Assembly (NCBI GenBank): GCA_017445405.1 | Contig: JAFSUD010000012.1 | Span: forward strand, 1-64,000 | Origin: Synergistaceae bacterium | GTDB lineage: Bacteria; Synergistota; Synergistia; Synergistales; Aminobacteriaceae | DNA: 64,000 nt | Direction: 5' to 3' | Part shown: piece after piece, positions 31,083 to 49,753 of the stretch | Layout of the letters: each line of letters starts with the position of its first letter | Position numbering within the stretch: the first letter of the stretch is position 1 | Made by a program: the position numbers and the translations under genes | Notes under the pieces: generated by a model | What the model was told of the DNA's origin: nothing | Database searches by the model: none | The model's input: the letters and a program-made list of their open reading frames with translations, nothing else

Positions 31083-32270
31083 ATGAAGCTGAAGACATTC
31101 ACGCCTGCAGACGTAGCGGGCAAGAAAGTATTAATGCGTGTAGACTTCAACGTCCCGTTCAAGGGCGGAAAAGTAACTGACAATGCGCGGATATTGGCGC
31201 ACACGAGCACGTTAAAGAAGCTGATAGACGCAGGAGCGAAAGTAGCGTTAATATCGCATTTCGGCCGGCCGAAGGGGAAAATCGACCCAGCTTATTCGCT
31301 TTCCCAGATAGTGCCCGACATAGAGAAAGCCTACGGACTGAAAGTAGTATTTGTAGATGACTGTGTAGGCGACAAAGTAGCCTCAGCAGTAGATGCCCTG
31401 AAGCCCGGCGAAATAGCTGTGCTTGAGAACTCGCGCTATCACCCAGAGGAGCAGAAGAACGACCCCGAGTTCAGCCGTAAGATGGCAGCACCATTTGATG
31501 TTTTCGTGATGGATGCGTTCAGTGCAAGCCACCGGGCGGACTGCTCAACGTGCGGAGTAATTCCTTACGTGAAGGCAGCGTTTGCGGGCGACCTGCTATC
31601 ACGTGAAGGGGACATGCTGGGTGCAGTGAGTGAGAACCCTGCGAAGCCCTACGTTCTGATACTAGGAGGAGCGAAAGTCTCAGACAAGATAGACATAGTA
31701 GGCAATCTGTTAGACAAGGCGACGACAATATTAATCGGCGGAGGGATGGCGTACACGTTCCTGAAGGCGCAGGGAAAAGAGATAGGCAAGTCCTTATGCG
31801 ACACGGAAAGGCTTGATTTTGCGCGTGATACTCTCGCCAAAGCTGCAGGCATGGGAGTAAAGATACTTCTTCCGGTAGACAGCGTAGTAGCTTCTGGCAT
31901 GGACGCGACGGACACGGAAATAGTGAGCAGTGATGCGATGCCTTCTGACAAGATGGGCTTAGACATCGGCCCTGAGACAGTGAAGCAGTTCATAGCAGCC
32001 CTAGACGGTGCAAAGTCAGTACTCTGGAACGGCCCAATGGGAGTATTTGAGGATGCGAAGTTTGCGGAAGGTACGAAGGCCTTAGCCGAGGCGGTAGCAG
32101 CGATAACGTCCAAAGGAGCGACGACAGTAATCGGCGGAGGGGACACAGCGTCAGCGGTCCGTCAGTTCAAAGTTGCGGACAAAGTGTCTCACGTGTCTAC
32201 CGGCGGAGGAGCGAGCCTGGAGTATTGTGAAGGCAAGAAGCTTCCCGGCATGGAGCCTTTCAGGGTGTAA
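31083..32270 (+). CDS. pgk: phosphoglycerate kinase
   Basis: A 395-residue glycolytic enzyme transferring phosphate between 1,3-bisphosphoglycerate and ADP. Family signature RVDFNVPFKGGKVTDNARI near residues 18-36, substrate-binding SHFGRPKG and ENSRYHPEEQKN, the LILGGAKVSDKI segment, and the nucleotide-binding GGGDTASAVRQF and STGGGASLEY near the C terminus. AGACGGAGG precedes the ATG. Co-directional with tpiA, with a structured-RNA candidate between them. Confidence 0.97.
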   Translation: MKLKTFTPADVAGKKVLMRVDFNVPFKGGKVTDNARILAHTSTLKKLIDAGAKVALISHFGRPKGKIDPAYSLSQIVPDIEKAYGLKVVFVDDCVGDKVASAVDALKPGEIAVLENSRYHPEEQKNDPEFSRKMAAPFDVFVMDAFSASHRADCSTCGVIPYVKAAFAGDLLSREGDMLGAVSENPAKPYVLILGGAKVSDKIDIVGNLLDKATTILIGGGMAYTFLKAQGKEIGKSLCDTERLDFARDTLAKAAGMGVKILLPVDSVVASGMDATDTEIVSSDAMPSDKMGLDIGPETVKQFIAALDGAKSVLWNGPMGVFEDAKFAEGTKALAEAVAAITSKGATTVIGGGDTASAVRQFKVADKVSHVSTGGGASLEYCEGKKLPGMEPFRV

Positions 32271-32280
32271 TGTGTACTAT

Positions 32281-32490
32281 CTGCCGACTTAGGCAGTGAA
32301 GTATATGGCTGGGGCATGTCTGCGACGTGCTGCGCGACCAGCCATTGGAGGAGAGCCAGTAAGTCCGGAGCAATCCGGCAGGTTTGTTTATACCACAATC
32401 CCCTAGCTTTCGGGCTGTGAAGCGGGAGTATGTCAAGGGAACTGGAAGATGAACAGCTTCCCGCCGGTCGGAAGACTGAGCATTCATCAG
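32281..32490 (+). ncRNA. structured RNA candidate between pgk and tpiA, HEARO/omega-RNA-like
   Basis: The 265-base gap contains many nested helices: CTGCC/GGCAG (32281-32295); a long hairpin ATGGCTGG/CCAGCCAT (32305-32312/32338-32345) with inner GCATGTC/GACGTGC and a TGC apex; GCCAGT followed by CCGGA-GCAA-TCCGG (32365-32378, GNRA loop); AGC/GCT with closing CCC/GGG; GGGAACTG/CAGCTTCCC (32437-32462); and a GTC-GGAA-GAC hairpin near 32467. The first hairpin with a TGCGAC apex and the GCCAGT plus GGA-GCAA-TC hairpin resemble, from memory, HEARO (omega-RNA) scaffolds next to IscB nucleases. No iscB is present. RNA is likely; the family call is tentative. Confidence 0.5.
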
Positions 32491-32535
32491 AATTTAATGT
32501 TTAGGCCGGTATTATTAACTCGGTGAGGTAATATC

Positions 32536-33285
32536 ATGAGCAAAAAAATATACCTGTTCGGAAATTGGAAAATGAACAACACGTACAGTGAGACGGAAAA
32601 ATTCTTCACGGAATTTCCCTCAGCGTACGAGCCGTTCAAGGGAGATGCGAATTTAGAGGTAGGCATATTTGCGCCATTTACGTCATTATGGCCTCTATCG
32701 CAGGGAGCGAAGAAGTGCGGAATAGTCTTTGGAGCGCAGAATGTGTACTACGAGCCTAAAGGGGCATTCACGGGTGAAATCTCAATCCCTATGCTGAAGG
32801 AATACGGCGTAACGCACATAATACTTGGCCACAGCGAAAGACGGCACATCTTCCTTGAGAGCGACGAAGTAATCGCTAAGAAGACGAAGGCAGTGTTAGA
32901 CGCAGGAATGATCCCTGTTCTTTGTTACGGCGAGCTTTTAGAGGAGCGAGAATCTGGCAACACGTTTACAGTAATGGAACGTCAGCTCAAGAGCGCGCTA
33001 TCGGGTCTGAGTGCAGCAGAAACTGGAAAGATAATCTACGCCTATGAACCAGTATGGGCAATCGGCACTGGCAAGACGGCGACCCCGGACCAGGCGGAAG
33101 AAGTCTGCAAGTGGAGTCGTGAGCTTATCGGCCAGAAGGACGCAGTAATTCTTTACGGCGGAAGCGTGAAGGGTTCAAACGCGAAGGAGCTGCTCTCAAT
33201 GCCTGACATTGACGGCGCACTAGTGGGAGGAGCGAGCCTGAAGCCCGCCTCATTCTTGGAGATCTACGGAGCGTACAAGGGCTAA
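32536..33285 (+). CDS. tpiA: triose-phosphate isomerase
   Basis: A 249-residue TIM-barrel enzyme interconverting dihydroxyacetone phosphate and glyceraldehyde-3-phosphate. Catalytic residues are visible: Lys in GNWKMN (about residue 13), His in LGHSERR (about 97) and Glu in AYEPVWAIGTGKTATP (about 169), with the phosphate-binding YGGSVKGSN near 212. GTGAGGT precedes the ATG. A strong terminator follows. Confidence 0.97.
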   Translation: MSKKIYLFGNWKMNNTYSETEKFFTEFPSAYEPFKGDANLEVGIFAPFTSLWPLSQGAKKCGIVFGAQNVYYEPKGAFTGEISIPMLKEYGVTHIILGHSERRHIFLESDEVIAKKTKAVLDAGMIPVLCYGELLEERESGNTFTVMERQLKSALSGLSAAETGKIIYAYEPVWAIGTGKTATPDQAEEVCKWSRELIGQKDAVILYGGSVKGSNAKELLSMPDIDGALVGGASLKPASFLEIYGAYKG

Positions 33286-48022: not shown

Positions 48023-49753
48023 CTAGAATAACCTCGCTTCTTTCTCGTCTTCAGGTACTTCTCTCGGCCTCACGAACGGGTCAACATCTAACCGCTGACC
48101 GAACGATGCGGGCCTGTCAGGAAATGCCAGTATGTACAGCGACAAACCTATTTCGTCATCACTGCCTGATGTCCTGTCGTCCTTGTAATGCAAGTCCCAC
48201 AGCATACAATCAGTCTGCCACTGAAGACTATAAATTATCTCGTCTACCATGTCTTTATCGAGATCATAGCTTCCGCGCGCTGCAGCATATATTTCACGCC
48301 CTACAGGAAACCTCACCTTCTGATGAATCCTCTCGCGTTTACGGTATTGATCCCAATGCATGGGACTGCTGCCCCAGACATATTGACGTTCATAACCTGT
48401 TCCTAGTTCGAATACGCCTATTTTATAACGTAAACCTGTAAAACTCCTCAGCATTTCATGGTCAGAATCATCGCGGTCATAGAACCAAACTACACCCTGA
48501 CTGTCAACAAACAGCTCTATAGCTCCCTTGTCGTCCAGCGGATGCTCTAAATAGTTCCTGAAGCCCATTCCGTAACGCGAGGTAACTTCTCCTTCCGCGC
48601 TTCCGTGAAGAGTCTCCTTGAAGCTGCCGTATGATGCATAAAGCCTCATCCATGAATACGCTGAACTCTTGAACCACGGAGCATACACGACAAGTTCCGG
48701 CCTTCTGTCTAAGCGTCCCTTGAACTCGTTTTCGCTGTCCTTCTGGTCAGAAATGTACTCATTGCGGCTCCAGTTTATACGTGCCTCCCAGCCCTTGTGG
48801 GAATACATCAATGACGCGTAAGGCCTCCAGACTCTCTCGTCCCACTCGTCGTCCCATGAGTGCTCGACTCCGGCCAAGATGGAGAAATCCTCGTTAAGTT
48901 CCTGTTCAACCTCGAGCATGAACTCAAACTCTGCTTTCTCGGAATATATCAGGCCTATTGATGCTGCGCCTGTCTCCCAGCCTATTGTTCCGGTTACTCC
49001 TGCACCGATGCCTTTAGTGTCGCTGCGCTGAAAGTAGGGCAGGAATGAGTACTGCACTGCTCTGCGCTTGAGCTGGACTACATAATCCATAGGAGACGTG
49101 AAAAGGTATGTGTTGCCGAGATAGACCCGGGGCTTCTTGGCCGTGATCGTCCTTCCGGGAATGAACGTTATAGTTTTCGACTCGAGCCTGTAGTGAGGGT
49201 GATCCAGTGCACAAGTAGTGAGTACAACGTCGCGCCACTGCAGCATGTAGTCTTCGGGAGTGCCCTTGACGAGTCCTCTTGACTGTGCAAGCTCCCACGG
49301 CATAACGTCTATTTCGCTGCCGTAGACGTAAAGCACTGCGCCTTCTCCTACAGCGAGACGGGTAATAGCTCCGGAGAGTATGCCCTCTCTGCTGTTGAGG
49401 TCGTACTCGAGCTGGTCGCCTCTGATTGACCGTGTGCCGTTCGTGAGGACTATCTGGCTTCCGGGCAGGGGCATAGCCTGTACTTTCTGAGTCTCTGCGT
49501 CATACTCTATGCGTTCTGCCATTATGGTAGTGTCCTGATATGTCAGGACTGCATTACCCTGAGCGTATGCGCGTCCAGTCTCATCGTTGAATGACACGCG
49601 GTCAGCATTCAGAGTAACATTATCAGGAACAGCCTGCTCCGAAGGTGTATCATAATTATCTGTGTAATAATCCTCAAAATCTGCGGCATTAATACTCACA
49701 GCACACAGAAAAATCATGCTAATTACTATCAACGTTTTAGTGGTTTTACCCAT
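48023..49753 (-). CDS. LptD-like outer-membrane protein with LptA/OstA N-terminal domain
   Basis: A 576-residue exported protein: signal peptide (LIVISMIFLCAVSINA), an LptA/OstA-type beta-jellyroll (NVTLNADRVSFNDETGRAYAQGNAVL, about residues 45-140), then a C-terminal region of alternating strands with many Trp/Tyr residues, as in an outer-membrane barrel. It is shorter than proteobacterial LptD (~780) but matches the reduced LptD-like proteins of other diderms. It probably passes lipopolysaccharide to the outer leaflet. Start overlaps the LptC-like gene by 25 bases. The Cys pair of LptD disulfides appears reduced (TTCALDH, DCMLW). Confidence 0.75.
   Translation of the reverse strand: MGKTTKTLIVISMIFLCAVSINAADFEDYYTDNYDTPSEQAVPDNVTLNADRVSFNDETGRAYAQGNAVLTYQDTTIMAERIEYDAETQKVQAMPLPGSQIVLTNGTRSIRGDQLEYDLNSREGILSGAITRLAVGEGAVLYVYGSEIDVMPWELAQSRGLVKGTPEDYMLQWRDVVLTTCALDHPHYRLESKTITFIPGRTITAKKPRVYLGNTYLFTSPMDYVVQLKRRAVQYSFLPYFQRSDTKGIGAGVTGTIGWETGAASIGLIYSEKAEFEFMLEVEQELNEDFSILAGVEHSWDDEWDERVWRPYASLMYSHKGWEARINWSRNEYISDQKDSENEFKGRLDRRPELVVYAPWFKSSAYSWMRLYASYGSFKETLHGSAEGEVTSRYGMGFRNYLEHPLDDKGAIELFVDSQGVVWFYDRDDSDHEMLRSFTGLRYKIGVFELGTGYERQYVWGSSPMHWDQYRKRERIHQKVRFPVGREIYAAARGSYDLDKDMVDEIIYSLQWQTDCMLWDLHYKDDRTSGSDDEIGLSLYILAFPDRPASFGQRLDVDPFVRPREVPEDEKEARLF

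Follow-up and report, generated by a model that had tools for sequence, protein, structure and literature searches.

The region between pgk and tpiA in a rumen-type Synergistaceae bacterium contains the scaffold of a transposon guide RNA. Comparative sequence analysis identifies positions 32303-32436 of the window (the whole 64,000-nucleotide stretch of DNA that was analysed) as a scaffold belonging to the right-end RNA (reRNA) of a TnpB element of the IS200/IS605 type, and the nucleotides that follow, in the slot of the guide, carry the most highly conserved part of tpiA in the form that relatives have. We give roughly even chances to the reading that this is a stand-alone, domesticated TnpB reRNA, which would be loaded in trans and would direct TnpB to tpiA alleles that have not been recoded, sparing the linked tpiA.

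The RNA in the pgk-tpiA gap

The gap measures 265 nt and is rich in helices. Gene order is constant in the genus, pgk lying immediately 5' of tpiA in all 30 genomes examined; the leader/element is missing between the two genes in 28 of the 30, the gap being mostly 3-26 nt. A second host with the same pgk-RNA-tpiA arrangement, G032, is another species in a different branch of the genus. In a further genome (G027, locus L067) the gap holds a different, 231-nt insertion of repeated hairpin-like units. The features assigned in the window are as follows.

31083-32270, + strand: pgk (phosphoglycerate kinase), upstream neighbour, ORF of 395 aa
32274-32304, + strand: 5' hairpin, CTGCC/GGCAG within a GUACU/AGUAU stem; kept in G032 too; the pair 32284/32293 shows a compensatory C-G to U-A change
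32303-32436, + strand: scaffold of a TnpB reRNA (TnpB omega-RNA), identical in kind to a right end of the IS200/IS605 type; from covariance model R1 and blastn to the Helicobacter suis tnpB 3' end
32305-32345, + strand: stem 1, ATGGCTG/CAGCCAT; helix 1 of the 66 copies, with C-G to U-A compensation at 32309/32341 between window and G032
32313-32317, + strand: 5' strand of the pseudoknot, GGCAU, pairing with AUGUC at 32430-32434; scored cells 100% paired in 66 copies
32318-32338, + strand: 21-nt insertion in the loop of stem 1, a small dispersed repeat; missing in the G032 copy
32354-32384, + strand: stem 3, AGCC (32354-32357)/GGTT (32381-32384), enclosing stem 2; helix 3, 98.5% of cells paired
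32365-32378, + strand: stem 2, CCGGA-GCAA-TCCGG; helix 4; the pair 32367/32376 shows G-C to U-A compensation against G032
32400-32426, + strand: right-end hairpin (CCCCTAGC...GCT...GGG); helices 5-7, with C-G to U-A compensation at 32407/32414
32430-32436, + strand: 3' strand of the pseudoknot, ATGTC, plus AA; right end ...TCAA, IS608-like, near-invariant in 66 copies
32437-32456, + strand: guide GGGAACTGGAAGATGAACAG, the tpiA GNWKMN motif; 19 nt identical to tpiA of genome G026
32457-32535, + strand: leader from the guide to the tpiA start, holding the tpiA ribosome-binding site; 82% identical to G032
32536-33285, + strand: tpiA (triosephosphate isomerase), linked gene, ORF of 249 aa
32556-32579, + strand: site in the resident tpiA corresponding to the guide, GTTC followed by GGAAATTGGAAAATGAACAA; TTAC absent, four mismatches at guide positions 3, 6, 12 and 20

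The folding energy of the gap stands out little from that of shuffled sequences (z = -1.62; 12 of 200 shuffles were equally low). With so weak an energy signal the fold alone is no proof of an RNA; proof comes from comparative evidence. A covariance model (R1) was built from 13 other copies, leaving out the window copy and its nearest relative, and it gave 82 bits (E=3.3e-18) to 32303-32436; the score of the G032 copy was 95.5 bits. Its matches number 110 and are spread over 25 of 43 genus genomes; at one position the window copy has T where all 13 model sequences have G. Across 66 copies, standard pairs make up 95.8% of pair cells, against 33-37% for slid partners, and two-sided changes occur at 22 of 29 pairs. 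All proposed helices covary, including a TnpB-type pseudoknot beside the guide, for which compensatory types (GGCGU/ACGUC, GACAC/GUGUC, GGUGU/ACACC) were seen and which is intact in the window copy; in the structure of ISDra2 TnpB a corresponding pseudoknot immediately precedes the guide on its 5' side (PMC10097598). In a blastn search against plasmids, positions 32345-32436, through the end ...GGGAGTATGTCAA, match Helicobacter suis tnpB 3' ends. The scaffold core is found again in the window's own genome and in the genus, several of these loci overlapping a tnpB 3' end directly, and the sequence 3' of the right end varies between copies, as guides do. Taken together, the model match, the covariation with its pseudoknot and the homology to tnpB 3' ends identify the scaffold as that of a TnpB reRNA.

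The original prediction, that the gap encodes a structured RNA, was thus borne out by an independent model built from relatives. Its assignment of that RNA to the HEARO/IscB omega-RNA family, on the strength of a GNRA hairpin and of sequence motifs, reflects a superficial likeness and now has practically no chance of being right. Searches with HEARO (RF02033) were negative both at the locus (E up to 10) and genome-wide, the IscB-specific RRXRR domain (PF14239) was absent at E<=10, and the homology is to tnpB right ends; within the genome searched, which is 88% complete, the HEARO/IscB reading is ruled out. At the gathering score, Rfam reports two tRNAs and nothing else over the whole window, and a permissive Rfam scan of the gap returned snoRNA and sRNA matches at chance level only. 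The hairpin with the GCAA loop is real and is stem 2 of the reRNA. The TGCGAC apex read as an IscB scaffold feature stems from the repeat inserted at 32318-32338. The suggestion of a guide-type RNA served in trans holds insofar as the scaffold is of a transposon guide type and solitary, so that a nuclease could act only in trans; the IscB kind was mistaken. The search of the genome for iscB and for other copies yielded scaffold copies elsewhere, and no IscB domain.

There is no tnpB gene at the pgk-tpiA site, no clear left end is recognisable in the window element, and a search for a local promoter found none. The 5' hairpin is possibly a remnant of the IS left-end hairpin, as judged by likeness. 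Sequences of 20-24 nt resembling the insertion in stem 1 recur elsewhere in the genome. Together they make up a dispersed repeat roughly 21-24 nt in length (TGTCTGCGACGTGCTGCGCGACC with its variants), found at loci L006-L011 on contigs C37, C74, C34, C17, C10 and C12; L007 and L008 are flanked on both sides by repeated sequence.

The guide and the resident tpiA genes

The guide of a TnpB reRNA sits 3' of the right end. An RNA of this type therefore has its guide at 32437-32456, and not in the 5' flank (32285-32304) as originally proposed, where a conserved hairpin precedes the scaffold. The guide covers codons 9-14 and part of codon 15 of tpiA as found in relatives, and the corresponding slot in G032 reads GGCAACTGGAAAATGAACAG. 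Each guide has its closest alleles in tpiA genes that include those of its own branch, the window guide in G026 and the G032 guide in G017 and several other genomes, with a single mismatch in each case, at position 20. The form of the target in relatives is TTAC + GGNAACTGGAARATGAAC. TTAC is the target motif of IS608-type elements; here it was read from the left border of a dozen near-identical copies in one genome. Near-identical copies in another genome share TGAC at that border. The match between guide and tpiA sits in exact register behind this motif. Since TTAC directly precedes the guide-matching stretch of tpiA in 17 Synergistaceae genomes, register and motif agree.

The likeness to tpiA stops after 19-20 nt, where the guide ends. 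The 79 nt that follow show none when compared with tpiA, and the idea that they are decayed tpiA sequence was rejected. They belong to a leader (32457-32535) whose sole whole-length match among 188 genomes of the phylum is in G032; 82% of it is kept between the two hosts, and all models leave the conservation of these approximately 80 nt unexplained. A coding reading of 32429-32500 (MSRELEDEQLPAGRK...) was rejected after comparison with G032 by eye: the changes between the two sequences are mostly amino-acid replacing, which indicates that this stretch is no gene. Nor do solitary guides match their neighbours as a general rule; in the other copies, comparison of guides with their neighbourhood gave nothing beyond short repeats and chance-level matches.

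The tpiA genes that reside beside the two guides no longer match them. TTAC is missing in both (GTTC in the window, ATAT in G032), which is weak evidence by itself because it is missing from most relatives too. Both genes differ from their own guide at positions 3 and 6, that is, at two of the first six bases; for TldR, a nuclease-dead TnpB homologue, a 6-nt seed has been described (PMC13418256). Both hosts use AAT at the codon of position 6 (Asn), and none of the 36 further members of the genus does, a comparison picked post hoc (Fisher p about 0.0014, by hand).

Distribution, solitary copies and candidate nucleases

G032 is probably the goat-rumen metagenome-assembled genome RGIG3196 (JAFSJJ010000019.1, goat reticulum). 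Among 83 family genomes the unit occurs in the window host and G032 and in no others; over 84,980 species genomes an exact pattern retrieved G032 as the sole other carrier, and a search of viral contigs found none. A tree of pgk and tpiA places the two hosts in different branches. Between them the element is about 85% identical overall (82-90% from the scaffold onward, 75% in the 5' hairpin), as compared with 35-37% identity at the 4-fold sites of pgk and tpiA, which are saturated neutral sites; the differences comprise four compensatory changes and leave no reRNA pair broken. Two histories would fit: great age under strong selection, accompanied by many losses, or an en bloc transfer at some earlier time. 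Neither pgk nor tpiA showed a co-conversion tract, so recent transfer of the whole segment as a block lacks support and was rejected.

Solitary reRNAs are ordinary in this genus. About 65 of the non-redundant copies have no upstream tnpB, some of them owing to a contig end; a left-end hairpin and a TATAAT-like box are present in many of them. What is unusual about the tpiA copy is its guide. Multi-copy stand-alone elements made of left-end hairpin, TATAAT-like box and right end, without tnpB, are exemplified by L153-L168 in G036 (a dozen of the copies in this genome being near-identical), L124-L129 in G029 and L023/L123 in G035. Many solitary copies have an extra conserved 5' domain, a hairpin of the GGTTAAGCAGGGGTGAAATCCGCTAGCC type, between the promoter-like box and the scaffold (L005, L024, L029, L114, L139 and L142). 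At L028 (contig C115 of G028), tnpB has an in-frame TAG and the adjoining right end is of the window element's rare subtype (GACTGTGAAGCGGG).

As to nucleases, the window's own genome has 11 loci with a TNB domain, and it includes tnpB genes that look intact. At least four of these genes adjoin an reRNA of the present type and keep the D-E-D residues, or the sequenced part of them. The single Y1 transposase of the genome lies near tnpB on contig C29, where positions 48090-49642 (L202, L003) hold a seemingly complete IS605-type element consisting of the transposase, a D-E-D tnpB and an reRNA/right end. Three distant TNB-domain proteins (L088-L090) have Q at the aligned E position, with only weak matches to the reRNA model beside them. 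G032 encodes a TNB-domain ORF of 398 aa and shorter ones.

Possible roles and relation to known systems

On the reading that we favour, an reRNA, freed from its IS200/IS605 transposon, was retained between pgk and tpiA, and the pgk-tpiA transcript would carry its scaffold. A TnpB encoded elsewhere in the genome would recognise three of its features (stem 1, pseudoknot and right-end hairpin) and trim it, leaving a guide of about 20 nt that starts at 32437 and is directed at TTAC + the target sequence in tpiA of related species. The resident tpiA, about 100 nt downstream, would escape because TTAC is missing and seed positions 3 and 6 are changed. Unrecoded tpiA alleles that enter the cell, or that reside in cells receiving the segment, might then be cut, and the cutting of other alleles could favour the linked segment. 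It is tempting to extend this into a natural cleave-and-rescue-like cassette, in which a solitary TnpB guide against the near-universal GNWKMN site of tpiA is linked to a tpiA made immune by recoding; a TnpB shared within the cell would then exclude other alleles and favour the pgk-RNA-tpiA segment; we regard this extension, drawn from sequence comparisons, as rather doubtful.

The main rival, which we consider unlikely and yet a serious contender, is that the locus is a relic. An IS200/IS605 element would have inserted at TTAC in an old copy of tpiA, the rest of both being deleted later, and the 20 nt would be its frozen right flank with no present function. Elements of this kind do take their guides from insertion flanks, the stretch shared with tpiA lies in register with TTAC, a tnpB with an in-frame TAG in G028 is adjoined by a right end closely related to the present one, and the window scaffold carries an insertion. 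Against a frozen flank stand the end of the likeness to tpiA at 19-20 nt, with none in the following 79 nt, and the recoding of tpiA in both hosts, which such a relic does not predict. Moreover, neutral-like decay would be expected, yet 82-90% of the sequence is kept against 35-37% at 4-fold sites, with compensatory changes in addition. We think it improbable that the transposon-derived RNA serves instead as a cis-acting 5' regulatory element of tpiA, operating through processing, attenuation or translation control, with the guide incidental or pairing within the leader. The region from the pgk stop to the tpiA start is conserved throughout, including the 80 nt that follow the guide and hold the ribosome-binding site; and since TnpB processes its own mRNA into omega-RNA (PMC10278001), such processing could cut the tpiA leader. 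However, 28 of 30 genus genomes run pgk-tpiA with no such leader, two-sided changes fall exclusively in the 5' hairpin and in helices of the reRNA, with none in the 3' part, and a regulatory leader gives no reason for 20 tpiA-identical nucleotides behind an intact pseudoknot. Very improbable, in our judgment, is silencing of a tpiA allele by a nuclease-dead TnpB homologue that uses the guide without cutting. There is a precedent in TldR, whose guide is directed against a host flagellin gene and which brings its own flagellin (PMC13418256), but the reRNA-linked TnpBs of this genome keep their D-E-D catalytic residues, no effector is linked to the locus, and the proteins with Q at the E position are adjoined by only weak model matches.

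Solitary TnpB guide RNAs are usually taken for transposon debris, their guides being supplied by whichever sequence adjoins the insertion. The present guide is a conserved piece of a core metabolic gene; it has outlasted neutral sequence and lies beside a version of that gene which it no longer matches. Should the stand-alone reRNA be active, it would mean that domestication can turn transposon guide RNAs into genes of their own, which use shared nucleases against alleles of core genes and form an intermediate between selfish homing and programmed RNA-guided systems.

The element resembles IS200/IS605 TnpB reRNAs, such as those of ISDra2 and of IS608-type elements: the scaffold overlaps the right end, the pseudoknot is formed with the bases immediately before the guide, the guide adjoins the right end on its 3' side, and a TTAC-type motif lies 5' of the target. 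It departs from them in the lack of tnpB at the locus, in an altered right-end hairpin, and in a guide that is a 20-nt piece of the neighbouring gene and does not simply continue the insertion-site flank. Being solitary, it recalls palindrome-associated elements (PATEs), non-autonomous IS200/IS605 derivatives reduced to their ends, and the genus has many solitary copies equipped with a left end, a promoter-like box, an reRNA and a right end; unlike PATEs, the tpiA copy lacks a clear left end, and two distant species have it at the same junction of pgk and tpiA, where it has evolved with compensatory changes. HEARO/IscB omega-RNA is likewise an OMEGA-type guide RNA but a separate family, with a 5' guide and the IscB nuclease. 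As with TldR and its flagellin swap, a guide faces a host gene while the linked version of that gene is spared; in contrast to TldR, the guide adjoins the spared gene, no effector is linked to it, and the TnpBs that accompany this reRNA type keep their catalytic residues. Finally, the arrangement invites comparison with the TnpB-driven spread of insertion sequences in plasmids (PMC11870625) and with synthetic cleave-and-rescue, where the element-less version is targeted and the linked one is immune. It differs from both in that target and immune copy would be alleles of a core metabolic gene and that drive is, here, a proposal.
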